A DNA stretch of 64,000 nt, taken from the NCBI RefSeq assembly GCF_003323745.1, contig NZ_QOIL01000027.1:62001-126000 (forward strand). The letters are read 5' to 3'. Positions 51,810 through 63,962 of the stretch are shown one piece after another; position 1 is the first letter of the stretch; each line of letters begins with the position of its first letter. This DNA is from Sphaerisporangium album. Lineage in GTDB: Bacteria; Actinomycetota; Actinomycetes; Streptosporangiales; Streptosporangiaceae. Made by a program: the position numbers and the translations under genes. The notes under the pieces were generated by a model, which did not search any database, was not told where the DNA came from, and saw nothing but the letters and a program-made list of their open reading frames with translations.

Positions 51810-52442
51810 TCAGCCGCGGCGGGCGCGGGCGCGGCGCTTGCCCTCGTGCATGGCCTGCACGCGCGCCACCGGGATCGTGTGCCCCTCCTCGATCAGGTCG
51901 GCCGGCAGCCGCTGCGGCGCGGGCATCAGCTCGGCCCACGGGTCGCCGTCCCCGGCCAGGCCCGCCGCCGTGCGCAGCGTGAAGTCGCCCGGCGTCACCC
52001 GGTCCAGGTCGTCCCACGCCACCGGGAACGACACCGGCACCCCGGGCCTGATGCGCGGGCTGTAGGCCGCGATCACGGTGGCCCCGCCGGCCCGCGTGGA
52101 GTCCAGGAACACCTTGCCCCCGCGGTCATCGCGGATGAACGCGGTCGTCGCCAGCGCCGGGTCCAGGCGCTCGGCCCGCGCGGCGACGGCCCGGGTGGCC
52201 GCCGCCATGTCCTCCATGCCGATCCCCGGCTCCAGCGGGACGAACACGTGCAGCCCCTTCGCCCCGCTGGTCTTCACCGCGCCCGCCAGCCCGTCGTCGG
52301 CCAGCGCCCGGCGGACGAGATGCGCCGCGCGGACCGCCATGCCGAACGCGTCCCCCTCCGGCGGGTCCAGGTCGAGGATCATGTGCGTCGGCGTGTCCAG
52401 CGCGTCGGCCGTGACCAGCGCCGGGTGGTACTCGACCGCGCG
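51810..52442 (-). pseudogene. LigD-type NHEJ polymerase, 3' part, separated by the integrative element
   Basis: About 210 codons encode the C-terminal two-thirds of a LigD polymerase/primase domain, from AVEYHPALVTADALDTPTHMILDLDPPEGD onward. DLDPPEG holds catalytic acidic residues; KTSGAKGLHVFVPL and SPRIRPGVPVSFPVAW are family blocks. The frame meets a TAG inside the element (52446-52448). Its missing N-terminus lies at 63639-63962. The uninterrupted protein would be about 316 residues, the size of a stand-alone LigD polymerase. ATG 52382 could start a shortened product. Confidence 0.92.
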
Positions 52443-52461
52443 CGGCTACTTCCGCTATCCA
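52423..52461. other. attL, left junction of the integrative element
   Basis: Host sequence reads up to the core CGCGC (52439-52443), after which element sequence GGCTACTTCCGC begins. The switch point is set by comparison with attR and by the LigD reading frame. Host arms GTGGTAC...GAACCAC around the rebuilt attB show partial dyad symmetry. Confidence 0.85.
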
Positions 52462-52483
52462 CACACAGCGGAAGCGGGGCACC

Positions 52484-53992
52484 ATGGAAGACATGCTCAC
52501 GACGGAGTACGACGGGTGCGGGCGCTGCTTGGTGGGGGTACGTCGGCTGAGCAGGAAGACCGACGCCACCAGTAGCCCGCAGCGCCAGGCAGACCAGGTC
52601 CTACGGGCCACAGCGGACGCCGGGGGCCACATCGTGGCATGGGCCGATGACTGGGAGGTCTCCGGTGCCACGGACCCGCTGACGCGGCCGAGGTTCGGAC
52701 CGTGGTTGCGTGGGGAGATGGGGCCGTATGACGGTATCGCGGCGGCCACCGTCGATCGCGTCGGGCGCAATGTGCGGGACACGTTGAACACGCAGGCTCT
52801 ACTAACCGATCAAGGTCGCGTCATCGTCACGGCCGATCACGTGGGGGTCTGGGATTTCAGCGACCCGAACCAGGAAAACGAATGGCTGGTAAAGGCGTGG
52901 GGATCGCAAATGGAACTGCGTGCGATCCAGAAACGCAATCGCGACGAGGCCCTACGGGCACGGGCGGCAGGACAGCCCAGGCAGCGCCCATCGTATGGGT
53001 ACATGTATGTCCGTCTCGCCCCAACAGCAAAGGTCGATCACGTAGCGATCGATCCGGTAGCCGCCGAGATTATCCGGGAAGTAGCGCGAAGAATTCTTTC
53101 GGACGAGACGGAAAAGATTACGTGTGCGACAGAAGCGGCACGCTTGACACGCGAAGGCATTCCCTGCCCGTCTGATCGCCGCGCCCAACTCTATGGCCGT
53201 CCAACGAAGAACAGGCCATGGAGGGCGAAAGCAGTCAAGTACATCTTGTGCAGTGAGGCTGCGCTCGGATATCTCATGCACGATTTGCGACCGGTGATTG
53301 GTTCGGATGGACGGCCAGTCCGCATAGCAGATCCGTTGTGGGATCGGGCGACCCATGACGCTCTCGTCGAGAAAACCGCGCCGAAACGCAGTGGCAGCCG
53401 CGCGCCGAAAAGCACGCAACTACTGGCGGGTATCGCTTTCTGCGGTAACTGCGGGGCGCGACTCTACGTCACAGGTCGGTACGGATGCACCGCGCGGGTA
53501 CGGGGGATTCCTGCGTCGGCGCATTGCAGACCAGCCCCCTTCATGCCAATCACCGATTTGGACGCCCTCGTTGGCAAATGGTTCCTCTCCCTCTACGGCG
53601 CCGGAGAGGTCATGCGAAAAGTCTACGATCCCGGAACCGGGCATGCCGCCCAGGTCGCGGAGTTGACGGCTACACGTACTCGGTTGCGAGAGGACCGCCA
53701 AGCCGGGCTATACGACGATCCCGACGAAGCGGAATGGTACCGCGCCGAATATCGGCGGATCGGGGAGGAGATTGCGGCGCTGAAGGCATTACCGGAACGC
53801 AAGCCGGGAATGCGAATGGTGCCCACCGGCCGGACGATAGCCCAGGAATGGGACGCAGGAGATTCCGTCAAGCGGCGGGAAATGCTCGCAGAATTTGAGG
53901 TCCGCGTGGTGCTGCACCCCACTGGCCACGATCCACGTGTGGTCATTACCGGCATGGAGCTTAGCCTAGATGGGCTTGAACTCACCGGCTAA
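52484..53992 (+). CDS. Large serine recombinase (integrase)
   Basis: A 502-residue serine integrase. The N-terminal catalytic domain starts VGVRRLSRKTDATSSPQRQ, in which Ser23 is the likely nucleophile; TVDRVGRNVRDTLN follows. The recombinase domain (about 170-280) contains the GY-motif RPSYGYMY and WRAKAVKYILCSEAALGYL. A zinc-ribbon domain (LAGIAFCGNCGARLYVTGRYGC...AHC) and a coiled-coil region (about 370-430) follow. It lies 40 bp inside attL, pointing away from the end. It would integrate and, with a partner factor, excise the element. Confidence 0.95.
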   Translation: MEDMLTTEYDGCGRCLVGVRRLSRKTDATSSPQRQADQVLRATADAGGHIVAWADDWEVSGATDPLTRPRFGPWLRGEMGPYDGIAAATVDRVGRNVRDTLNTQALLTDQGRVIVTADHVGVWDFSDPNQENEWLVKAWGSQMELRAIQKRNRDEALRARAAGQPRQRPSYGYMYVRLAPTAKVDHVAIDPVAAEIIREVARRILSDETEKITCATEAARLTREGIPCPSDRRAQLYGRPTKNRPWRAKAVKYILCSEAALGYLMHDLRPVIGSDGRPVRIADPLWDRATHDALVEKTAPKRSGSRAPKSTQLLAGIAFCGNCGARLYVTGRYGCTARVRGIPASAHCRPAPFMPITDLDALVGKWFLSLYGAGEVMRKVYDPGTGHAAQVAELTATRTRLREDRQAGLYDDPDEAEWYRAEYRRIGEEIAALKALPERKPGMRMVPTGRTIAQEWDAGDSVKRREMLAEFEVRVVLHPTGHDPRVVITGMELSLDGLELTG

Positions 53993-54012
53993 GGCGGCGC
54001 GCGTGGCGTAGC

Positions 54013-54052
54013 AACCGCCCGACACCTACGCGTGTAGGTGCCGGGCGGTTTT
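54013..54052 (+). terminator. Rho-independent terminator of the integrase gene
   Basis: A long stem AACCGCCCG (54013-54021) / CGGGCGGTT (54042-54050), with an inner CACCTAC/GTAGGTG and a GCGT loop, ends in TTTT, 20 bp after the integrase stop. Confidence 0.85.
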
Positions 54053-54110
54053 GCTTGATGCCTTTTCCGCTGAACATCGGGAATTAGGTCACTATCTTCT
54101 TTGGACGGAT

Positions 54111-54332
54111 TCAGATTGAGGTGAATCTGGGAACCAGATAGCGGACTGTGCGGCCCATGCGTGTGATCACTCGTACATCGTGCATCGATAGTTGCCCCTC
54201 TCTCGGCAGTGCTTCTAGGGGGAATTTCAGTACGCTTGTGGCAGGCCAGGGCGTAAAATCTAGGGCGAAGAGGCCAGCATAAAAATGTCTGGTGTCGAGA
54301 CGGCACCTGAGGGTTTCGGCGTCGGCATCCAC
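54111..54332 (-). CDS. Hypothetical protein, possibly 5'-damaged
   Basis: From GTG 54332 it gives 73 residues. The same frame stays open upstream to about 54530 and reads as plausible protein (WTNAETGAAGWKIITP, ASEWQIRIPHAALTVVVVDADAETL) but has no ATG, GTG or TTG start with a ribosome site. A Shine-Dalgarno and ATG in another frame (ATG CTC AAC GAG TAA, about 54535) sit where the gene should start, so a frameshift or decay is likely. Function unknown; C-terminal part LSMHDVRVITRMGRTVRYLVPRF. Confidence 0.45.
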   Translation of the reverse strand: MDADAETLRCRLDTRHFYAGLFALDFTPWPATSVLKFPLEALPREGQLSMHDVRVITRMGRTVRYLVPRFTSI

Positions 54333-54625
54333 GACGACGACTGTGAGCGCTGCGTGTGGAATCCGGATCTGCCATTCACTTGCTGCGTGAGCGTGGACGG
54401 TTCCGCCGGAGATAGCGGCTACGGCAAGGGCGAGCCGGCGAGTTGGGGTGATGATTTTCCATCCTGCCGCGCCAGTCTCCGCGTTGGTCCAGGGATGTAG
54501 ATTTCCGTCGCATTGATTACTCGTTGAGCATCACCTCTTTCTCTAGGTGGGCGCTTCCCTTTCCGCCGTGCACGGCACTGCCGCGCACGGCGGGCATTGG
54601 ATGGCGTCGTTCCGAGTTAGCCAGT

Positions 54626-54871
54626 TCAGTCGCGGTACAGGCGGCGGGTGCGGTTCCACAGGCGGCGGCCGAGCCTGAGGCGTAGGCCAGTGCCGTTGCA
54701 GCGAGGGCAGAAGCGCCAGCCGGATAGGCCGAACGGGTAGGGAATGCGGCCAGTGCCACGGCATCGTTGGTGTTCGCGGAACGGTCGGACGTAGCAGAGA
54801 AAGGCGTAACGCAGCGTGAACAGGATGGGAAGGGTGATCGCCGCGAAAGCAATCAGCGTGTCTGTGGGCAA
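54626..54871 (-). CDS. Small membrane protein with CxxGxG-type zinc ribbon
   Basis: An 81-residue protein. Residues 6-30 form one membrane segment (FAAITLPILFTLRYAFLCYV), then CRGTGRI and CPRCNGTGLRLR, a DnaJ-like CxxCxGxG-type metal site missing one Cys, and an Arg-rich tail (GRRLWNRTRRLYRD). Small genes of this type accompany FtsK/TraB genes in actinomycete plasmids and AICEs. It starts with TTG 54871, preceded by AGGAGGT. It is the last clear gene of the transfer operon. Confidence 0.75.
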   Translation of the reverse strand: MPTDTLIAFAAITLPILFTLRYAFLCYVRPFREHQRCRGTGRIPYPFGLSGWRFCPRCNGTGLRLRLGRRLWNRTRRLYRD

Positions 54872-54895
54872 GAAACCACCTCCTGAGGGGGTTTC
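54872..54895 (-). promoter_or_regulatory. Hairpin that could mask the ribosome binding site of the zinc-ribbon gene
   Basis: On the minus strand GAAACC and GGTTTC (6-bp arms) flank CCCTCAGGAGGT, so the AGGAGGT of the TTG-started gene lies within a potential stem-loop. It could tune translation; no evidence beyond base pairing. Confidence 0.3.
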
Positions 54896-54964
54896 GGGCT
54901 AGTCGGCGGTCAGGCTGCTACCTGCTACCGGCCTGGTCAGATGGCATATCAGGGTGCTAGCGGG

Positions 54965-55004
54965 GGTGCTTCCGGAAGTATGGTCACCTGCTTCCGGAAG
55001 CACC
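54965..55004. repeat. 14-bp inverted repeats directly after the translocase gene
   Basis: GGTGCTTCCGGAAG (54965-54978) and CTTCCGGAAGCACC (54991-55004) form perfect 14-bp inverted repeats 12 bp apart. Each contains the 10-bp palindrome CTTCCGGAAG. They end 8 bp after the translocase stop codon. In pSVH1, pIJ101-like plasmids and AICEs the cis-acting transfer site (clt) lies just downstream of traB, so this is a candidate. A terminator without a U-tract is the alternative. Confidence 0.7.
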
Positions 55005-55012
55005 CTCCGCGC

Positions 55013-57262
55013 CTAGTCGGCGGAGCGGTTTTGATTACGTTCCGCGATGACTTGGGCGAGATCAGCGCGGTAGATGCCGCGCCTGGTGTGCTTCTTGCCG
55101 TCGATGCGGCGGCCGATGGGTCCGACCTTGACCCCGAGAGGCTTCAAGGCGCTGGTGAGCTGTTCGGAGCGCCATCCGGCGTAGACCTCCGACCGGAGTT
55201 CGGCCAACCGTTCGCACAGCTCCGCGTTCCACGCGGCATCTTCTCCGGCAGGCCAAATGCGCGCGAGATCGGAGAGCAGATCGTAGGCGGGCGGATCGGG
55301 TCGGGTCTGGGTGTCGGGTTCGGGCATGGTGCCCGCCGCAACCCGCATCTCGATCGCCCGTGCGACGACCTGTTTGGCCTGATCGGCGTTGACCTCGAAG
55401 CTTCGGCGGGCACCAGGCTTGCCCACGCCGACGACCACGCCCCAACCAGCGTCGCCCGGATCGTTGTCGTTTCCCGGCTCGAACACGGTCGCCCGATAGC
55501 CCGCCCGGTACATGCCAGTGCCGAGGATCATGTCATTGGCGACCTGATCGCGGACCGACATGCACACGCGTGTGTTGATGTTGCGGGTAATCCCTGTGGG
55601 CAGGCTGTCCTTGTCCGGGATCTGGGTATCTAGCAGCAAGATCACGCCCAGCGCTCGCCCAAGCTTGATCACCTTTTCGCACAGCTCACCGGCTTCAGCG
55701 CCGTACTCCGAGTGCTGGAACAGCTCTTGCGCCTCGTTGAGAAAGACCACGAGCGGATGCAGCCCTGATCCCTTGCGCGAGGCCAACTCGGACGTGACCT
55801 TGTTTTCCGGGGCCATGCCCAGCGCGTGATAGTGGGCGATCTTCGCCGCGCGCTGCTGGCACTCGGTCTGATACAGCCACTTGATCATGGCGGCTGCTTT
55901 GCCGATTGTGGCGTCGTCTTGGCCATCGCCGTACTCGGCGCAGACAGGTTCGACCACCGCGAAGTCTCCGACCCCCTTGAGCGCATACCCCCTGATCTCA
56001 GCGCGCGGGTCGAGGCTGGCTGCCAGGACCAGCAGTCGTAATAGGAACGTCTTGCCCGAACCGGGTTGCCCACCAATCAACCAGTTGCGGAAGATCAGCA
56101 TGGCGTTGACGATCTCCATGCGGGGCGTGACGAACAGCGGGAAGGACGTGAAGACATCCACCCTGCCGCCCTTCAACAGCGGCCAGGACGGCGTTTGCGT
56201 CTTGCTCGCGGGTTGGTAGCCGACCCAAAGCGCCAGCCGTCCAGGATGGCCCTGGGCGGGCTCTGGCCATACCTGGTCCAGCGGTAGCCGCATCCCGGAC
56301 GCCAGCTTGCCGCGCCGTGCGACGACGTCGACGGCTTCCACGCCGAAGGGCAGATCCACGATGGCCAGATGCCCGGGGCCGTCTCGGTGGATCTCATCCG
56401 GGAAGCTGATGGCGTGCTGATCCTTGGCCACGGCGCTGTTGATCGCCGGTATACCGATGCTGAGCAGGGCACGCCTTACCAACTCAGCCGTGAGCTTGCG
56501 ATAGCGCGACCCCTGGCTGACGCGATCGGTGATCGGCTTGTCCTCAGGCCGTCCGGCACGGGCTAACAGCGGTGTCAGCACGGCGAGCAATGCCCATCGT
56601 GCCCAATCCGGCACCGTCACGTCCAAGATAAGCAGGGTCACCACCGATGCCCCCGTGAGCAGGCTGACCAGCAACAGCACCGACCAGCGCCAGCGCGCTT
56701 GCCGTTCCCGCTGTTTGTCCAGCTTGAGCCAGGTGACAGGGTCGTTGCGGTCCGCCGCGGCCTGCCTCAACGCGCGGTTGCCATCCTCTGCACTGGCCCA
56801 GCGCAGCACGCGGGCGATGCCGGAGACGAACCCGACGGGCGCATACGCGGCGGTCTTGAGCGCGTACTTGGGGAGGCGAACCGTGTGGTAACCGAGCACA
56901 TAGGCGGCATCCCTGGCCCACCAGGCGAACATGGCACGCCTACCGACCCTCGTGCGCATCCATGGCGGGACGACCGGGGCGCGCCCCGGACCGGTCGGGG
57001 ACCGGTCCGGGGGCATGCCATCGTCGGGGGGATCAACCGGCGGTCCGACCGCCGGTTGATCCCTGGGAACCGATTCTCGATCGAAGTACGCACCATCCTC
57101 TGCATCCTGGGCGTCGTCGGGGCCGGAGGCAGTGCCGGCGCTCTCTCCCGAGTCCTGGTCAGGGCCGGTACCCGTCGCCGGATCCGACCAGGTGAAGCCC
57201 GTCAGCGGGGTCACGATGGAGCGGTCGGGCGTGTGGTCGGGGTCGGACGGTGGCCGTGTCAT
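55013..57262 (-). CDS. FtsK/SpoIIIE-type DNA translocase (TraB-like)
   Basis: A 749-residue protein expected to pump double-stranded DNA during conjugation. A Pro/Asp-rich N-terminus (1-100) precedes two membrane segments at about 198-243 (WSVLLLVSLLTGASVVTLLI; WALLAVLTPLLARAG). The FtsK motor has Walker A GGQPGSGKT near 398 and Walker B LVVFLNEAQE near 505. The C-terminal part resembles a winged helix (SALKPLGVKVGPIGRRIDGKKHTRRGIYRADL), as in TraB/FtsK gamma domains that bind clt repeats. It overlaps the upstream gene by 4 bp. A GTG at 57262 is used. Confidence 0.93.
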   Translation of the reverse strand: MTRPPSDPDHTPDRSIVTPLTGFTWSDPATGTGPDQDSGESAGTASGPDDAQDAEDGAYFDRESVPRDQPAVGPPVDPPDDGMPPDRSPTGPGRAPVVPPWMRTRVGRRAMFAWWARDAAYVLGYHTVRLPKYALKTAAYAPVGFVSGIARVLRWASAEDGNRALRQAAADRNDPVTWLKLDKQRERQARWRWSVLLLVSLLTGASVVTLLILDVTVPDWARWALLAVLTPLLARAGRPEDKPITDRVSQGSRYRKLTAELVRRALLSIGIPAINSAVAKDQHAISFPDEIHRDGPGHLAIVDLPFGVEAVDVVARRGKLASGMRLPLDQVWPEPAQGHPGRLALWVGYQPASKTQTPSWPLLKGGRVDVFTSFPLFVTPRMEIVNAMLIFRNWLIGGQPGSGKTFLLRLLVLAASLDPRAEIRGYALKGVGDFAVVEPVCAEYGDGQDDATIGKAAAMIKWLYQTECQQRAAKIAHYHALGMAPENKVTSELASRKGSGLHPLVVFLNEAQELFQHSEYGAEAGELCEKVIKLGRALGVILLLDTQIPDKDSLPTGITRNINTRVCMSVRDQVANDMILGTGMYRAGYRATVFEPGNDNDPGDAGWGVVVGVGKPGARRSFEVNADQAKQVVARAIEMRVAAGTMPEPDTQTRPDPPAYDLLSDLARIWPAGEDAAWNAELCERLAELRSEVYAGWRSEQLTSALKPLGVKVGPIGRRIDGKKHTRRGIYRADLAQVIAERNQNRSAD
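57029..57063. repeat. 15-bp perfect inverted repeat inside the translocase gene
   Basis: GGGATCAACCGGCGG (57029-57043) and CCGCCGGTTGATCCC (57049-57063) are perfect inverted repeats with a 5-nt loop, within the Pro-rich N-terminal coding region (residues about 66-78). It may be a regulatory stem or a DNA-binding site, or a by-product of the repeated residues. Confidence 0.8.
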
Positions 57263-57609
57263 GCGCCACCGTCCGGGCTGCTCGGCGCGAGGGTGCCTGC
57301 CTGGTCGGCAAGCTCGTCACGCAGGTAGGACAGAGGGTCGGGTTCGCCGTCCGCGTCGGCGCTCAGGGCGGCGCGCATGGCGGCGGTCAGGTTCGCACGG
57401 TGCAGCCGGGTCTTACTGATCTCGGCGCGGAGTCGGGTGATCTCGGCGACCAGGACGGACGTGTCGTGAAGGGCAGCGGTGACGTGGTGCCAGAGGTCGC
57501 CAAGGGTCGCGGTGGATCGGGCGAAATTGGCGATGAGTTCACGGGCTACGTCGTTACGGTTCAGCACCTCCTGAAGTTCGGGGTCAGGGTATGGAAGTCG
57601 GTAGGCCAC
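57259..57609 (-). CDS. Hypothetical transfer-operon protein
   Basis: A 116-residue helical protein with coiled-coil potential (VLVAEITRLRAEISKTRLHRANLTAAMRAALSADA). It uses GTG 57609 with GAGAGGTG upstream and overlaps the translocase gene by 4 bp. Proteins of this size commonly precede ftsK/traB in actinomycete AICEs. Function unknown. Confidence 0.8.
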   Translation of the reverse strand: MAYRLPYPDPELQEVLNRNDVARELIANFARSTATLGDLWHHVTAALHDTSVLVAEITRLRAEISKTRLHRANLTAAMRAALSADADGEPDPLSYLRDELADQAGTLAPSSPDGGA

Positions 57610-57642
57610 TGAGGCATCACCTCTCTAGGGTCGGTGGACAGG

Positions 57643-57834
57643 TCAGCTACCGGGAGTGATCCAGTGCAGGAACGCGCGCAGGGCGCGGTCAATCTCGGGT
57701 GCCAGCGTGGTCGCGGCCGTCAGGTAGCCGAACACGGCGCAGATCAGCGCCATCCACAGGCGCAACTTGAGGTAGCGCACGGCCAGCACGACGACCACGC
57801 CGAGCAGTACCACGAGGGGAATCGATACGGTCAT
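57643..57834 (-). CDS. Small SpdB-like membrane protein
   Basis: A 63-residue protein that is mostly hydrophobic (SIPLVVLLGVVVVLAVRYL; LWMALICAVFGYLTAATTLA), giving two membrane segments. GGAAGGAGGTGATGCCCCT precedes its ATG. Similar short membrane proteins in AICE transfer operons are called Spd (spread) proteins and help plasmid spread within mycelium; the assignment is by context. Confidence 0.75.
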   Translation of the reverse strand: MTVSIPLVVLLGVVVVLAVRYLKLRLWMALICAVFGYLTAATTLAPEIDRALRAFLHWITPGS

Positions 57835-57887
57835 AGGGGCATCACCTCCTTCCGGCTAGACCGTTGGACGTGGAAGCACGTGAGGTG

Positions 57888-58055
57888 TCATATGCCGTCG
57901 TGACGGGCCTTACGACGACGCCAGCGAGCGCGGGCACGGCACTTGCCGCAACGCTTGTTGCCAAGCTCCAGCGCCGCACCACAGGGGCACCCACGGCGAT
58001 CGGTGCGGTGACGGGCGGCGGTGGTAACCGGGGAAATGTCATTTACTCGACTCAC
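57888..58055 (-). CDS. Small zinc-ribbon protein, 55 residues
   Basis: The frame starts GTG 58055, ends TGA at 57888, and encodes CPCGAALELGNKRCGKCRARARWRRRKARHD at its C-terminus, preceded by SRVNDISPVTTAARHRTDRRG. The four cysteines (C-x-C...C-x2-C) and Arg/Lys tail make a compact nucleic-acid-binding zinc ribbon. AAGGGAAA is upstream and the GTGA overlap with the next gene indicates coupling. It is very short and easily missed. Function unknown, possibly regulatory. Confidence 0.75.
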   Translation of the reverse strand: MSRVNDISPVTTAARHRTDRRGCPCGAALELGNKRCGKCRARARWRRRKARHDGI

Positions 58056-58357
58056 TGGTCTTTCCCTTCCGCGCTACCGGAGTAGCGGACTCGCACGAGG
58101 AACCGACGCGCCAAAGCGTCAGAACCAGATCGCGGCGCGTTCACCAAATGGTGACGGTCACCCCGATGAATTCCGATGATCAGGGCCACGAAGACTACGA
58201 CCGTCGAAACGGCCATAAGCCCGATGCCAGCCAGTACGGCATTCCAGAACATTCGCTTACTCGCTTCCGCAGTTGGCCGAAACAAGCCGGAGGGAGGCTT
58301 TTTCGGTGGCCGTGATTTCCATACCTGAATTCCATCCGGTATTAGGTACGGTTCCAA
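58052..58357 (-). CDS. Small single-spanning membrane protein, first gene of the transfer operon
   Basis: About 100 residues with one membrane segment (MFWNAVLAGIGLMAVSTVVVFVALIIGI). The N-terminal start is uncertain: TTG 58357 lies inside the iteron array and has no Shine-Dalgarno, and no ATG occurs before the Met at the membrane segment. The end overlaps the zinc-ribbon gene by 4 bp. The family is unknown; context suggests a role in transfer. Confidence 0.65.
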   Translation of the reverse strand: MEPYLIPDGIQVWKSRPPKKPPSGLFRPTAEASKRMFWNAVLAGIGLMAVSTVVVFVALIIGIHRGDRHHLVNAPRSGSDALARRFLVRVRYSGSAEGKDQ

Positions 58358-58418
58358 TGCGGCCGTAATGCGGCTTCAGTGCATTACCAGTGCGGTCGCA
58401 GTGCGGTTCGCCGTGCGG
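58356..58418. promoter_or_regulatory. Array of five 11-bp iterons plus a partial sixth
   Basis: AATGCGG at 58356 and 58367, AGTGCAT at 58378, and AGTGCGG at 58389 and 58400 recur with an exact 11-bp period. A further GTGCGG at 58413-58418 is off by 1-2 bp. The array lies at the start of the leftward transfer operon and upstream of the STAND gene. Iterons one helical turn apart bind a protein along one DNA face, as in operators of transfer genes or replication origins. Confidence 0.8.
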
Positions 58419-58635
58419 GGCTGGTAGATCGGCGTTTCCCGCCCCTGTGACGTGGGCGAGCGGATGCGGCGGTCAGCCTCGCGGGGACCTTGCCGGGCAT
58501 GTGCAAACGCACGCCATCCGCAGGCAAGCGCACGTTCTCAGCCTCGGAAGCGGTGGAAGTCTGATCTGTGAGGGGGCGCCGAGTTATGCTGGCGACATCG
58601 ACCACCGTACGAAAACGGCAATGAGGCGGTAGCCA

Positions 58636-60930
58636 GTGGAGATGGTGAACGGCTGGACAGGGCGGGACGCGTGTGCACTGCAATCCGCGCTACGGATGAG
58701 TAATCAGCAATTCGCCACGCATCTGGGATTAGGGCTGCGCACGGTCGCTGACTGGCACGAGAAACTTGAGATGCGGCCACGGCCGGAGACACAGCAGGTT
58801 CTTGACTCCGCTCTGGCGCAAGCTTCGGCGGCCGTGAGAGAGCGATTCGCCGCCCTTACCGGCCGGTCCACGCAGGCAGCGGCGGATACCCAAGATGGGC
58901 TTGACCCTCACTCGCCCGGGGTCAGTATTAATACCGGCGTCATAAGTACCGGCGAGGGCGCCACGATCGACGCTCGTACCGTCCATTTGCCGGCGGATGC
59001 CGTCCGCACGCCCGCCGAGATTACGGCGGTGCGGGGATTGCGCAATTTACCCTCTCCCAGCAACCAAGTTTTTGTGGACCGGGTTGACGTCCTAGCGCAT
59101 CTGGACGCGGTCCTGGGCGAGGAACCGCCCACCGCTCCGCCCGTAGTGCACGGCCTAGGCGGTACCGGCAAGAGCACGCTGGCTCTTCAGTTCGCACACA
59201 GCAATCGCGACCGATACAACCCAATATGGTGGATTACCGCTGATTCGTCCGTCAGCGTCGTCACGGGGCTTGCCCAGCTTGCCGCCCGACTCAACCCGTA
59301 TGAGAACCTGACGGCCAAGACCAGCGCCGAGGCTGCCGCCTGGGCCATCGGCTGGCTGCAAGCCCATGACGGCTGGCTCTTGGTGTTCGATGACGCGGAC
59401 TCACCGCAAAGCATCGAATCCGTGCTCGGGATACTGGCCGCCGGTCGGCACCTGATCACCAGCCGTCACGCCACGGGATGGCACCGCGTTGCACGACCTC
59501 TGCCGCTGGCCCTGCTTCCTCCCGATGCCGCGCTGGACCTACTCACGCGAATCACCAATCCGAGCGACGACGCCGACCGGGCGGTCTTTGAACGTCTCGC
59601 TGCCGAACTCGGCTACCTGCCGCTGGCGCTGGAACAGGCAGCCGCCTACATCCAGCACGCGGCGATCACCCCAGCCGCCTACCTAGACCGCCTGCGGCGC
59701 TACCCTGCCCGCATGTTCGCCGCCTCGGCTGCATCTGACGCGAGCGGGGAGTCCGACAGACAGCGCACTATTGCCCGGATCTGGCAACTGTCACTTGAGG
59801 CCATTGCGGGCAGGCAGCCGCTAGCCGGCGAGATCCTCCGCACCTTCGCATGGCTCGCTCCCGACCCGATTCCCCGCGATCTCGCCTATCAACTGCACGA
59901 AGACCCACTTACGGTTGATGACGCCCTTGCCCTGCTGAACGCCTACAGCATGATCACCCTGACTCCGCAGACGGTCACCGTTCACCGGCTGGTCCAAGCA
60001 GTTGCCCGCATCCCCGACGCCGCCAGGCCCCACAGCGCGCCCGTCACGGTTAGCCAGGCCCGCGACCGCGCCGCACAGCTCCTACTTGATTCCCTCCCGG
60101 AAAATCCTCTGTTCAACGTCCCTAGCTGGCCCCGCTGGCGCGAACTCTTCCCACACGCCCTGGCTTTCACCGATCACATCGGTCAGGATCAGGACACCCC
60201 CGACACTGCGAGCATCCTGCGTGCCACTTCGGGATTCCTGCAAGGTGACGGTCATTTCGACCAGGCCATCGCATCCGCTCAGCGGGCCGTCAACGCCTAC
60301 GAACGCATTCAAGGCCCCGACGCCCTAGACACCTTGACTGCCCGCAGCTTCCTCGCCAGCGCGTACCGCGCTGCGGGCGACCTCACCACGGCAACCCCCC
60401 TCCATCAGCGCAATCTTGCTGATTCTGAGCGCATCTTGGGTGAGGACCATCCGGAAACTCTGGTCGCGCGGGCCAACCTCGCCTACCTCTACGCGCTACA
60501 GCACGACGAAGCCCGCGCACTTCAACTCCACGAGCGCAATCTCACCGACTACGAACGCATCCATGGCCCTGACCACCCCCACACCCTCAACGGCCGCGCC
60601 AACTTGGCCAGCTCGTACAGGGCGACCGGCGATCTAGGCCGCGCTATCGAACTCCATCAGCAGTCCGTCACCGACTACGCCCGCGTCTACGGCCCCGACC
60701 ACTCCGAGACCATCACCGCACGCAGCAACCTCGCCTACGCCTACCAGCTAGCTGGCGACCATGACCGCGCCATCCCCCTACATCAGCAAGTCCTCACCGA
60801 CCGCGAACGCCTCTACGGCCCGGACCACCACTACACCCAGATAGCCCGCCAGCTCCTCACCACAGCCGAACTCCAGGCAACCGAACACGAGCCACCGAAC
60901 GCCCCAGACAACCGGCAAGCTGAGGAGTAA
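58636..60930 (+). CDS. STAND ATPase (NB-ARC) with N-terminal HTH and C-terminal TPRs
   Basis: A 764-residue NLR-like protein. Residues 8-75 resemble an XRE/HTH segment (LRMSNQQFATHLGLGLRTVADWHEKLEMRPRP). A short linker contains INTGVISTGEGATIDA (about 97-112). The NB-ARC motor has Walker A GLGGTGKST (about 173-181) and Walker B WLLVFDDAD. The C-terminal half (about 530-750) has five or so TPR units with repeated GPDHPHT motifs. Such proteins are sensors that act in regulation, phage defence or cell death. Its presence on a mobile element makes a defence role possible. Start is GTG 58636; ATG 58642 is alternative. Confidence 0.85.
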   Translation: MEMVNGWTGRDACALQSALRMSNQQFATHLGLGLRTVADWHEKLEMRPRPETQQVLDSALAQASAAVRERFAALTGRSTQAAADTQDGLDPHSPGVSINTGVISTGEGATIDARTVHLPADAVRTPAEITAVRGLRNLPSPSNQVFVDRVDVLAHLDAVLGEEPPTAPPVVHGLGGTGKSTLALQFAHSNRDRYNPIWWITADSSVSVVTGLAQLAARLNPYENLTAKTSAEAAAWAIGWLQAHDGWLLVFDDADSPQSIESVLGILAAGRHLITSRHATGWHRVARPLPLALLPPDAALDLLTRITNPSDDADRAVFERLAAELGYLPLALEQAAAYIQHAAITPAAYLDRLRRYPARMFAASAASDASGESDRQRTIARIWQLSLEAIAGRQPLAGEILRTFAWLAPDPIPRDLAYQLHEDPLTVDDALALLNAYSMITLTPQTVTVHRLVQAVARIPDAARPHSAPVTVSQARDRAAQLLLDSLPENPLFNVPSWPRWRELFPHALAFTDHIGQDQDTPDTASILRATSGFLQGDGHFDQAIASAQRAVNAYERIQGPDALDTLTARSFLASAYRAAGDLTTATPLHQRNLADSERILGEDHPETLVARANLAYLYALQHDEARALQLHERNLTDYERIHGPDHPHTLNGRANLASSYRATGDLGRAIELHQQSVTDYARVYGPDHSETITARSNLAYAYQLAGDHDRAIPLHQQVLTDRERLYGPDHHYTQIARQLLTTAELQATEHEPPNAPDNRQAEE

Positions 60931-60948
60931 CAAGACCCACCAGACCCA

Positions 60949-61212
60949 TCACCACAGACGTTTCCTAACGAGTACCAAGACCGGTTCACCGTGGACAGTT
61001 ACGACCGTGCGCCAAGAGCGATGGGAATTAAGCGCATGCTCGACCGTGCCCACGACGAACGCGCGGTTGGCCATCCCGACACCCTCTGCGGCTGCCTCGG
61101 GGTCTTGCGCCAGAAGGCTGGTCAGAGCCTCCATGACAACCCGCTGGACCTCCTGAAACGTCTTCACCCGCACCGGTTCTGCGTTGCCCACGCTGACCTC
61201 ATAGCTACTCAC
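60949..61212 (-). CDS. Hypothetical protein
   Basis: An 87-residue protein from GTG 61212 (SSYEVSVGNAEPVRVKTFQEVQRVVMEALTSLLAQ...). No family recognised. A likely -10 (TAACGT) is about 12 bp before the GTG, so it may be leaderless. It ends 19 bp from the convergent STAND gene. Longer upstream starts are possible but cross the preceding terminator. Confidence 0.55.
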   Translation of the reverse strand: MSSYEVSVGNAEPVRVKTFQEVQRVVMEALTSLLAQDPEAAAEGVGMANRAFVVGTVEHALNSHRSWRTVVTVHGEPVLVLVRKRLW

Positions 61213-61242
61213 CCGGCTAACGTTATCCCGACATGAGAAAAG

Positions 61243-61270
61243 GGCCGTGACCCCGGAAGGGGTCACGGCC
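61243..61270 (-). terminator. Terminator of the leftward gene at 61353
   Basis: A perfect 12-bp stem GGCCGTGACCCC/GGGGTCACGGCC with a 4-nt loop. In the leftward direction it is followed by CTTTTCTC, a U-rich tail. It lies 83 bp after the stop of the 100-residue gene. Confidence 0.85.
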
Positions 61271-61352
61271 TGAGGTCTTCCGTCGCTGGCTTTGGGAACG
61301 CTACGCCTCCCCCACGGAGGTGTAGCTGCGGGCGCCGCAGCGCCGAGATGGT

Positions 61353-61655
61353 CTAGACAGTGCGGAGATAGTTGTCGGGGTACTCGGTCCGGTAGACCGC
61401 CCTCTGGCGTACCGGCTCTTTGGGGTTGGTGATGTCGTACGCGATGACCTCCGCGTAGCCGCCGGCCTCACCCTCGTCGTTGACGTAGCTCAGCGCGTCC
61501 GCGTGCTCCCCGAAGACGTCACTTCGAATCACATCGGTCTTCCGCTCCGCGTGTATCTCCGCGAGGTAGACGAAGATGTCATGCGCTCGTACGGCGATCT
61601 TGTGCCCACCGACGGTCACGCTGATGAGCTGAGGCTTGTCTCTTGGCATCGTCAC
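61353..61655 (-). CDS. Hypothetical small protein
   Basis: A 100-residue protein with an alpha/beta-like composition (LISVTVGGHKIAVRAHDIFVYLAEIHAER; EVIAYDITNPKEPVRQRAVYRTEYPDNY). No family recognised. Start is GTG 61655 or ATG 61649. A strong terminator follows. Its promoter region is bounded by the terminator of the DUF397 gene. Confidence 0.6.
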   Translation of the reverse strand: MTMPRDKPQLISVTVGGHKIAVRAHDIFVYLAEIHAERKTDVIRSDVFGEHADALSYVNDEGEAGGYAEVIAYDITNPKEPVRQRAVYRTEYPDNYLRTV

Positions 61656-61730
61656 GGCGGATCACCGTAGAGCACGGATGCAACTACGTCGCGTGCCTGC
61701 CCGTACACGAATACAACCTACTTGTAGCGA

Positions 61731-61764
61731 CAAAAAGGTCCCCCGGCCAACGACCGGGGGACCT
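61731..61764 (-). terminator. Terminator of the XRE-DUF397 operon
   Basis: A perfect 11-bp stem AGGTCCCCCGG (61736-61746) / CCGGGGGACCT (61754-61764) with a 7-nt loop. Leftward it is followed by TTTTTG, 22 bp after the DUF397 stop. Confidence 0.88.
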
Positions 61765-61785
61765 CTGTGACGTCGAATGGCAAGG

Positions 61786-62013
61786 TCAGAAGTCGAATTC
61801 ACCCTTTTTGGCGCCATCCAGGAACGCATCCCACTCACTCGGAGTGAAGACGTGCACGGGGCCTGTGCCCTTGTCCTTGGTGTCGCGAAGTGCTACGCGA
61901 CCGCCGGACAGGGGAGCGACCTCGACACAGTCCCCGCCGTTGGAGCTGGTCTTGGTGGCGGTGCGCCACGCGGCCGTCGCCAGCTCGCTTGCCACTTCAT
62001 CCCGCAGACTCAT
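61786..62013 (-). CDS. DUF397 domain protein
   Basis: A 75-residue protein with the family hallmark AAWRTATKTSSNGGDCVEVA and a C-terminal FTPSEWDAFLDGAKKGEFDF. DUF397 proteins pair with XRE/DUF5753 regulators and act in development in actinomycetes, for example near whiJ and abaA in Streptomyces. It overlaps the XRE gene by 17 bp and ends just before a terminator. Confidence 0.93.
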   Translation of the reverse strand: MSLRDEVASELATAAWRTATKTSSNGGDCVEVAPLSGGRVALRDTKDKGTGPVHVFTPSEWDAFLDGAKKGEFDF

Positions 62014-62821
62014 GCTTTCCTCTCGCCTCCCGTATCACTTGCTCGGATACGTGTAGTGGATGTGCCCACGCGCGAACCGCGTCGTATTTGAGGCTAACGG
62101 CATGTACATCGTCCGCGCGATCGGTTACCTGTCCATTGATGGCATTGTCCAGGTAGGCGGCATCTCTCTCGCCCGCTACCTGTGCGAGGGCGAACGCACC
62201 TGCTAGTCCGTTCGTCGCTCCGACAGCCAGCGGTACCACCTGCACCGAGATACACGGCCGTGCCATGAGGTCGAGCAGATGGCCTAGTTGATCGGCCATC
62301 ACGCGGGCGCCCCCCACGGGCCGAAGCAATACGCACTCGTCGATGACGACGGCCAGCATGGGCGGTGTCCGGCGATCAAGGATCTTCTGTCGCTGGACAC
62401 GAGCGGTCAGTAACTCCTCAACCTGCTCCTCAGAGATCCCCGGCTCGGTCTTCAGAACGGCGCGGGCGTAGTCCTGAGTCTGGAGCAGTCCAGGGATGAG
62501 CACGGGTTGCCACGTCCTGATGGCGCGGGCCGACGCCTCAATCTTCGTCCAGGGCCGGAACCAGCGTAGTGAGGTGGTTTCACATGCCCCCCACAGCTCC
62601 AGAAGGGGGCCACTGATACCTAGAGCTGCTTCACAACGAAGTATGAAGTCCTGTTTTGGCGTGCGCTCCGCGCGTTCCACGAAACCGACCATCGCGGCAG
62701 AGAAGTTGACTTTCCGCGCAAGCTCCTCCTGTGAAAGGCCAGCGGCCTGCCGAAGTCGTCGCAGCTCAACGCCTAACCGAGCCTCGGGGCTGACCGACTT
62801 ATCGGGTTTCATGGGCGGCAT
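61997..62821 (-). CDS. XRE-family regulator with DUF5753 (WhiJ-like)
   Basis: A 274-residue regulator. The N-terminal HTH (about 17-70) reads ELRRLRQAAGLSQEELARKVNFSAAMVGFVERAERTP, and the C-terminal DUF5753 ligand-like domain contains IRTWQPVLIPGLLQTQDYARAVL and FALAQVAGERDAAYLDN. ATG 62821 follows AGGGGAGC. It forms an operon with DUF397 and is divergent from the anti-sigma-type ATPase gene, matching the WhiJ-like gene sets. It probably binds the perfect dyad upstream. Confidence 0.92.
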   Translation of the reverse strand: MPPMKPDKSVSPEARLGVELRRLRQAAGLSQEELARKVNFSAAMVGFVERAERTPKQDFILRCEAALGISGPLLELWGACETTSLRWFRPWTKIEASARAIRTWQPVLIPGLLQTQDYARAVLKTEPGISEEQVEELLTARVQRQKILDRRTPPMLAVVIDECVLLRPVGGARVMADQLGHLLDLMARPCISVQVVPLAVGATNGLAGAFALAQVAGERDAAYLDNAINGQVTDRADDVHAVSLKYDAVRAWAHPLHVSEQVIREARGKHESAG

Positions 62822-62836
62822 CGCAGCTCCCCTCAC

Positions 62837-62853
62837 CGCTACAAATTGTAGCG
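62837..62853. promoter_or_regulatory. Perfect 17-bp palindrome, candidate XRE operator
   Basis: CGCTACAAATTGTAGCG is a perfect 8+1+8 inverted repeat 16 bp upstream of the XRE start in the divergent promoter region. A second dyad GTGTGAGACAC lies at about 62882-62892. Autoregulation by the XRE protein is inferred. Confidence 0.6.
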
Positions 62854-63039
62854 AGTCACTACTAGATTTACCGCAACAGATGTGTGAGACACCTGTGTTG
62901 GTCGGTCCTATGCGCACTCTAGATGAGCGCAGGCATCCTGGGAATCTGCTTTTCGGAGACAAACGCACGGCGACAGGCAAGCCCGATGACAAATCGGATG
63001 AACAGCCGTAAGGCCACTCGCAGACAGGATCCCCACCCA

Positions 63040-63477
63040 ATGCGCGCAATTCCGTTCACCGCGAGTCTGATAGGCGAGGTAGAGCTTCTACGACGCGACG
63101 ACACCCCCGGCGTAGCACGGGAGGCCATCGACAAGTGGATAGGCGCGGATCACCCGGCCAACTTCAACGTACGCCTGGCGGCGTCCGAGCTGGTCACCAA
63201 CGCCGTCCGGTACGCCACAGCGGGCGGAGTGGTGTGGCTGCGCCTGTTCGACCTGGGCGGCAGCGCCCTCCGGCTCGAAGTCCAGGACGCGGGGACGGCC
63301 CTGGAAGAGGAACCGATACTCGACCCCCCACAGGACGACATTGAGAACTCGATGCGCGAGGGGGGACGGGGCTTGTTCATCGTGGACGCGATCTCGTCGG
63401 ACTGGGGCGCGACGGTCACCAAGAGCGGGGGGTTCCTCGTGTGGTGCGTCATCCCCAACGACGACCCCAACCCGTGA
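63040..63477 (+). CDS. Anti-sigma-type ATP-binding (HATPase) protein
   Basis: A 145-residue single-domain GHKL ATPase like RsbW. N-box VRLAASELVTNAVRYA and the ATP lid LEVQDAGTAL...EGGRGLFIVDAISSDWG are visible. Such proteins bind sigma factors or anti-anti-sigma factors. It is the third member of the WhiJ-like set. ATG 63040 is used; ATGs at 62986 and 62998 are further upstream. It is the last gene before attR. Confidence 0.88.
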   Translation: MRAIPFTASLIGEVELLRRDDTPGVAREAIDKWIGADHPANFNVRLAASELVTNAVRYATAGGVVWLRLFDLGGSALRLEVQDAGTALEEEPILDPPQDDIENSMREGGRGLFIVDAISSDWGATVTKSGGFLVWCVIPNDDPNP

Positions 63478-63624
63478 TCGACAATGGGGAAGCCGTCAGC
63501 GACCGCCCCAGCTCGGCGCCGGTCGTGGTGTCGTTGCCCTGAGAATGTGCGAGCTGGGCACGCATCACCGCCAAGATGCTCCGGGCTCACAAAGCTCCCG
63601 TGGTTCCCCCGGGAGCGGTAGTGT

Positions 63625-63660
63625 GGTTAGAGGAAGCAGCCGCGCTGGTTGGCGAACCAC
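63625..63660. other. attR, right junction of the integrative element
   Basis: Element sequence ...GAGGAAGCAGC ends at the CGCGC core (63641-63645), after which host LigD sequence CTGGTTGGCGAACCAC resumes. The core copy is in direct orientation with that at 52439-52443. Confidence 0.85.
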
Positions 63661-63962
63661 AGCAGCGTGCGCCGGTCGTCGCACAGGGCGTAGGAGACCT
63701 GCCGCCGTGAGGTCTCCGCCCACAGCGTCACCGTGCGCACCCACTCCGGCGTGTACTTCGGGACGTTCTTCTGCATGAACGGCTCCTGGCCCGCCCGCAC
63801 GCGGATCACCGAGAGCGGCCGGCCGCGCAGCACCGGGACGATGCGGCCGGCGACGGCGTCCAGGTAGTCGACCAGGTCGCGCTTGGTCGCGCCCGCCCCG
63901 TCGAACAGCGGCTGGTCGAGGTTGGTCAGCGGAACTCCGTCACGCGTCTCATCGCTGGTCAC
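63627..63962 (-). pseudogene. LigD-type NHEJ polymerase, 5' part, cut off by the integrative element
   Basis: The first 107 codons of the gene, starting GTG 63962 and reading LTNLDQPLFDGAGATKRDLVDYL, EPFMQKNVPKYTPEWVRTVTLW and LLWFANQR. This is the N-terminal third of a LigD polymerase domain. After the core the frame reads four element-encoded residues (GCFL) and stops. Joined to 51810-52442 across attB it restores an uninterrupted polymerase of about 316 residues. In LigD the domain adds nucleotides during break repair with Ku. Confidence 0.92.

Follow-up and report, generated by a model that had tools for sequence, protein, structure and literature searches.

How a mobile element could set the direction of its insertion when the bases at its crossover read the same on both strands is the question raised by a locus of Sphaerisporangium album. 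The locus lies in a stretch of 64,000 nucleotides on contig C20 of a 9.3-Mb genome assembled in 62 contigs; the whole stretch is called the window below. Here an integrated element of 11,202 base pairs (bp), measured from crossover to crossover (52442..63643), has split a gene of the LigD type. The answer that we hold to be probable is that this element, which appears related to actinomycete integrative and conjugative elements (AICEs) and uses an integrase of the Bxb1 kind, recombines around a CG overlap that would permit integration both ways round and nevertheless clean excision. The element probably cannot tell the orientation of its own insertion.

The two ends of the element share the core CGCGC, at 52439-52443 in attL and at 63641-63645 in attR, with an offset of 11,202 and a mismatched flanking base at either end. 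AttL (52420..52463, plus strand) is composed of a ligD-derived half up to 52441 and an element half from 52442, with its centre at C52441 and G52442. AttR (63622..63665, plus strand) is composed of an element half up to 63643 and a ligD-derived half from 63644, with its centre at C63643 and G63644. When attP is rebuilt from 63643 leftward and from 52442 rightward, 16 of its 19 pairs are symmetric, and 20 of 23 after outward extension. Under a binomial model based on the base composition of the element, the estimated probability of at least 16 of 19 is 3e-7 per register; among 400,000 random 19-mer pairs drawn from the element the best reached 15 of 19 and 490 reached 12 of 19. The rebuilt attB is less symmetric (11/19 pairs). 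A preliminary description of this DNA had given the same core coordinates, the near-palindromic attP with 16 of 19 pairs and the weaker dyad of attB, and all of these are confirmed. It had also considered both sites typical of serine recombinases. This holds for the symmetry and the short core; the GTGGT/ACCAC arms of attB, however, are specific to the ligD sites and are not shared by the other attB sites of the integrase family, and the self-complementarity of the core had been overlooked. By eye, GTGGT sits 4 bp closer to the centre in the attB of the window than in its attP, which recalls a 5-bp half-site shift described elsewhere (PMC3783163); the offset was not found in relatives, and no claim is made for it.

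The interrupted gene encodes a LigD-type primase-polymerase. Its 5' part (63644..63962, minus strand; Pfam LigD_Prim-Pol, 2.5e-21) continues in frame into the element for a few codons, to 63627, and its 3' part (51810..52441, minus strand; 7.6e-45) matches over residues 106-316 at 100%. The two pieces cover positions 1-83 and 103-254 of the 254 positions of the profile. Joining the flanks restores a stop-free frame, ...LLWFANQR/AVEYHPAL..., and this frame together with the Pfam pieces supports the proposed splitting of the gene by the insertion. A search of 11 genomes of the genus found the gene in two pieces in its own genome and uninterrupted in all ten congeners (77-90% identity). Over 42 bases centred on the joint, each congener agrees with the rebuilt attB at 35-41 positions. 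Six of them align gap-free up to 100 bases from the joint; in the other four a single gap of 9 bases starts 38 bases from it. Such uninterrupted homologues had been suggested as a check on the rebuilt site, and none of the ten speaks against it. The boundaries, the two rebuilt sites and the target are thus read directly from the DNA. Because two more paralogues, 37-38% identical, are present in the same genome, the split gene is not its sole polymerase of the LigD type. One congener has an extra ligD piece of 300 bp (G003:C1:4636060-4636368; L014 / L002), 78% identical over query residues 192-293; the intact gene lies about 100 bp downstream of this piece.

The integrase gene (52484..53992, plus strand) encodes a large serine recombinase of 502 residues with a Resolvase N-terminal domain (Pfam 1.2e-11, above the cut-off) and weak matches, below the cut-off, to Recombinase and Zn_ribbon. 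Residues 14-490 align with the Bxb1 integrase, gp35, at 31% identity over 494 aligned positions. A search of the PDB returned one distinct sequence in ten entries, a 500-residue 'Integrase', which from its length is probably that of Bxb1. The protein has the catalytic domain architecture of large serine recombinases, and its sites have the near-palindromic attP, the unlike attB arms and the short shared core of that class. The protein families, the empty sites of the congeners, the likeness to Bxb1 and a further element occupying this site in a second genus bear out the preliminary description of the locus as a serine-integrase element. Close relatives of the integrase are rare: they occur in 3 of 297 genomes of a family sample (E 1e-40) and in 5 of 345 genomes of the order (1e-60), the own genome being counted in both, and in a phylum-wide sample of 396 genomes searched at E 1e-100 the window gave the only match (1/396). 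The search of genome contigs yielded 26 loci with relatives, and with the integrase of the related locus L060 as query, 23 of 392 genomes of the Streptomyces group matched at 1e-150. At L055, in Nonomuraea jabiensis (G303:C1:11098181-11099685), the integrase match falls into two overlapping pieces, which suggests a frameshift, although both att ends are intact.

The insertion recurs in a second genus. In Nonomuraea longispora (G190, locus L051) a 92% identical integrase is found at the same ligD codon and in the same orientation as in the window, in an element spread over two contigs, C54 and C183. The attP and attB of L051 differ at -2 and +3, so that only CGC is common to both and the crossover would be CG or GC. 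The window alone is compatible with any position inside the 5-bp core; the comparison with N. longispora narrows the likely crossover to these two dinucleotides, and symmetry says CG. Since the integrase has no match at 1e-40 in the ten congeners of the window, the two ligD insertions are probably separate acquisitions, although clean excision would also erase the traces of an older one.

How well a centre of symmetry marks the crossover can be seen from Bxb1. Applied to Bxb1 DNA, the rule ranked the published GT centre second of 291 positions upstream of the integrase gene, with 14 of 21 flanking pairs symmetric; the position ranked first belongs to another inverted repeat, 87 bp from the GT centre. 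Eleven rebuilt attPs had their symmetry maximum at the assigned centre in ten cases, the exception being L062, in a control that is partly circular because the half-site register had been chosen by hand according to the arms. The agreement of the centre bases between attL and attR is a less circular test. They agree in 16 of 17 elements (11/12, the window included, and 5/5 further ones). The exception is again L062, the only one of the 17 with disagreeing centres, which has a 1-base deletion at the attR crossover relative to L060. The unlike attL and attR centres of L057 and L054 in a first hand reading were resolved once the arms had been put in one register. For these 17 both ends could be read. 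No attR was found for L056, L061, L065, L066, L067, L069, L070, L071, L072, L074 (contig end) and L119, the last being the one of six further elements that gave no convincing attR; L063, L068, L073, L075, L076, L089 and L100-L114, for which attR was not sought, also stand outside the count.

The centre is CG in the window and in L051, both in ligD, and in L064, whose target gene we take from its peptide to be an OmpR-type regulator (Pfam found nothing in the 37-residue piece). It is TC in L052 and L055, in a ribonuclease gene (PF00545, searched with the L052 piece), and in L121, whose target has no Pfam match; CC in L053 and L058 (Methyltransf_19); and GG in L054 (target unassigned). AC is found in L116 (target unassigned) and in L120 (Metallophos). 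One methyltransferase gene is the target both of L057, L059, L117 and L118, which have GT, and of L060 and L062, which have AC (read from attL in L062); the L060 piece matches Methyltransf_25, and the L057 piece, which comes from the opposite side, has no Pfam match. Self-complementary centres thus occur in 3 of the 17 elements and at 2 of 9 target sites, where chance would give 0.25-0.29. As the latter fraction is about that expected, there is no sign, in what is a small sample, of selection against self-complementary centres or on polarity. The element of L120 (G863), a related one, splits its metallophosphoesterase gene at TGNHEYF codons, a conserved-looking motif. L116 (G789:C1:260529) has an integrase 96% identical to that of L060, the same AC centre and nearly the same attP, yet lies in another gene; its target seems to have changed recently.

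At the methyltransferase site the orientation of insertion follows the dinucleotide. The target motif is DAVL/TATALHW. In L057, L059, L117 and L118, with GT at both ends, and in L074, with GT read in attL only, the ATALHW side lies beside the integrase; in L060 and L062, with AC, it is the DAVL side, so that, with respect to the gene, these two are inverted compared with the other five. GT and AC are reverse complements, and the correspondence holds in 7/7 elements. The integrases of L057 and L060 are 90% identical, and outside the core the arms of their attPs resemble each other. A loss of orientation control in L057 and L060 was ruled out, as their attP cores are reverse complements and the orientation follows the dinucleotide. 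The comparison indicates that the site is a natural polarity switch between integrases of 90% identity. In the tree the AC pair branches from within GT lineages (support of 100/100 for L057 with the pair and 99/98 for the pair, L059 and L074 lying outside), so the AC centre is probably the derived one.

In characterised integrases the two bases at the centre of the core are usually asymmetric, as is the TT of phiC31, although this is no defining trait of the class. The CGCGC core departs from this rule in every register, as all four of its dinucleotides are self-complementary. The centre of Bxb1 is reported to be GT (PMC3642061), and that of A118 is given as GG. In both systems the asymmetry of the central dinucleotide alone is reported to set the orientation (PMC3642061, PMC3556126). 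When the core of the A118 sites is made symmetric, synapsis is described as productive either way: two double mutants gave deletion and inversion in proportions of 64.5/35.5 and 52.5/47.5% (PMC3556126, the text of which prints one mutant name twice). Furthermore, attP and attB are reported to synapse in both alignments and attL and attR preferentially in the parallel one (PMC3783163).

By combining these observations it is possible to propose how the element would move. Dimers of the integrase would bind the near-palindromic attP of the circular element and the weaker dyad of attB in the ligD-type gene. All four strands would then be cut around a 2-base overlap and, after rotation, religated, creating attL and attR and splitting the gene. 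As a CG overlap is self-complementary, the cut ends would pair in either alignment, and integration would proceed in both orientations. Excision, a recombination of attL with attR that would probably need a directionality factor, is expected to stay clean, as the unlike P and B half-sites would align the synapsis. Both-way integration with clean excision is thus predicted from the symmetric core, the A118 mutants and the parallel synapsis of attL with attR; the activity of the element, its integration both ways and its directional excision are extrapolated from other integrases. It is an even question whether a broader proposal also holds, namely that this is a naturally orientation-blind lineage, with CG native to attP and to the attB of ligD, similar rates of integration both ways and clean excision, and that polarity, which in sister lineages would be set, and once reversed from GT to AC at one codon, by the two crossover bases only, is a freely drifting trait of attP and not a selected one.

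The remaining genes of the element bear on its class. An open reading frame (ORF) of 81 residues with a four-cysteine motif recognised by eye (54626..54871, minus strand) is conserved in the N. longispora element (83 residues) and matches no family at E 0.01. It is followed by a candidate for an FtsK/TraB-like DNA translocase of 749 residues (55013..57262, minus strand), with GGQPGSGKT as a Walker A-type motif by eye; its matches to Pfam FtsK_SpoIIIE (E=0.003) and NCBIfam TraB (E=4.5e-4) are both under the curated cut-offs, and FtsK in the PDB matches at E=0.033. The N. longispora element has pieces 80% and 86% identical to this protein on its two contigs. An ORF of 116 residues (57259..57609, minus strand) is conserved, and so is one of 63 residues, hydrophobic by eye (57643..57834, minus strand); each member of this pair beside the FtsK-like gene recurs in 5/12 elements. 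A protein of 764 residues with NB-ARC and TPR domains (58636..60930, plus strand) belongs to the FxSxx-TPR family (NF040586, 343 bits, cut-off 300) and is taken as cargo. A 105-residue ORF (60949..61266, minus strand), without a Pfam family, is convergent with it, and this pair (58636-61266) recurs in the element of L053. Towards attR follow a DUF397 protein (61786..62013, minus strand), an HTH_31/DUF5753 regulator (61997..63049, minus strand) and a HATPase_c_2 ATP-binding protein (62923..63477, plus strand), the start codons of the last two not being settled. A reading of the element as a defence system was not adopted; PADLOC had matched helix-turn-helix control proteins to the DUF5753 regulator and mad8 to the FtsK-like protein (2.6e-10, 38 bits).

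FtsK-like genes form one single-linkage cluster at 1e-5 in 8 of 12 elements. A query with the window protein nevertheless matched nothing at 1e-10 in the L052 and L055 genomes, so that the FtsK-like gene appears diverse across the elements and not closely conserved together with the integrase. The elements of L058 and L064 share one further protein cluster, the L058 member of which is RepSA (2e-148), and by this comparison the integrase family also serves AICE backbones. None of the 14 ORFs of the window element searched in Pfam matches a Rep family (RepSA, RepAM, Prim-Pol). The same genome has six RepSA genes, on contigs C3, C4 (two), C19, C25 and C27 and none on C20, which suggests several other AICE-like elements. 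With an integrase and att sites and no replication gene found, the element is best described as AICE-related and perhaps mobilisable, and is not filed as a complete AICE.

Several points count against the proposal of both-way integration with clean excision. No directionality factor was identified in the element. The position of the crossover follows from symmetry and not from cleavage, and the half-site registers had been fixed manually on the arms, ahead of any comparison of the centres. The two ligD insertions share one orientation (2/2), an outcome that chance would give half the time. An assembled attP junction has no match in the own genome, although a consensus assembly would rarely hold one.

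Some of these points would fit a decayed and immobile remnant whose att sites are true scars of a past integration. The missing RepSA, in a genome with six elsewhere, the lack of an identified directionality factor and the apparently frameshifted integrase of the N. jabiensis relative are all consistent with decay. The integrase of the window, however, has no interruption and aligns along its whole length, at 92% identity, with that at the same site in the other genus, and the core and the attP arms are intact, so that we regard a remnant as unlikely.

A further alternative accepts the same element and att sites and supposes that the orientation is fixed by asymmetric half-sites, supercoiling, or the context of replication or transcription, the CG centre being without consequence. 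The common orientation of the two ligD insertions would then be expected, and the left and right arms of attP are indeed not identical (16/19). The dinucleotide is nevertheless reported to be the sole determinant of orientation in Bxb1 and A118, and at the methyltransferase site the orientation flips with it in all seven elements between outer attP arms that are alike. We therefore consider a fixed orientation quite unlikely.

It is very improbable that the element is a prophage or a satellite and not of the conjugative type. Among 50,697 phage records, 675 do have integrases of this family, all below 60% identity and the best-ranked at about 32%. Against this, a single viral contig matched, at 50%, no phage structural or packaging family was found among the 14 ORFs searched in Pfam, which are part of the listed ORFs (PHROGs was not run), the related element of L058 carries RepSA, and FtsK-like genes are present in 8/12 elements. 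Hardly credible is a different join, through a core read as CCGCGC (52436-52441), which would make attB 2 bp shorter: the sequence does occur two bases to the left in attL, and the symmetry of attP alone, judged by eye, does not exclude it, but it would shift the ligD frame, the spacing in 10/10 congeners fits the longer attB, and the alternating CG dinucleotides would remain self-complementary anyway.

The element with a CG overlap and predicted integration both ways can be compared with several known systems. It resembles Bxb1 in the protein family of its integrase (31% over 494 positions), in a near-palindromic attP directly upstream of int and in an attB within a coding gene, reportedly groEL1 for Bxb1. 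It differs in that the GT centre of Bxb1 is asymmetric whereas CG is self-complementary, and in that its carrier is not a phage. With AICEs of the pSAM2 kind, and with Faln2929 of Frankia, it shares the convergence of the integrase and transfer genes, a protein-coding gene as target and an FtsK-like candidate (PMC3218068); the differences are that no Rep gene was found here and that the FtsK-like gene falls under the curated cut-offs. The same survey counts serine recombinases in 19 of 144 AICEs; in its account of Faln2929, int converges on tra and rep, a protein gene is disrupted, and excision is detectable with no identifiable directionality factor (PMC3218068). Apart from the replication gene, the element of the window comes close to this arrangement. 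Multi-targeting large serine recombinases (PMC10083194) likewise include related integrases with different targets, as is the case for the window and L052 (88%) and for L060 and L116 (96%); in contrast to them, the integrase of the window has no DUF4368 match, and the readable targets are coding genes, that of L054 being unassigned. The mutated A118 sites share with the window the symmetric 2-bp core and the recombination in both alignments predicted here (PMC3556126), but they are laboratory mutants, whereas the core of the window is natural. For natural serine integrases, no report of a symmetric crossover dinucleotide, or of insertion both ways at one attB, was found in the open-access literature. 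To our knowledge, symmetric cores are known only as engineered sites. This absence is weak evidence, as large collections of sites may hold such cores unremarked (PMC10083194). The polarity of serine integrases is usually treated as a fixed and useful property; with a symmetric core and a polarity reversal both present in nature, genomes and simple assays can be used to ask whether it is under selection. The comparison also provides Bxb1-related integrases from actinobacterial genomes together with their paired attP and attB. The element itself is of a known kind, and its symmetric native core is the variant part.

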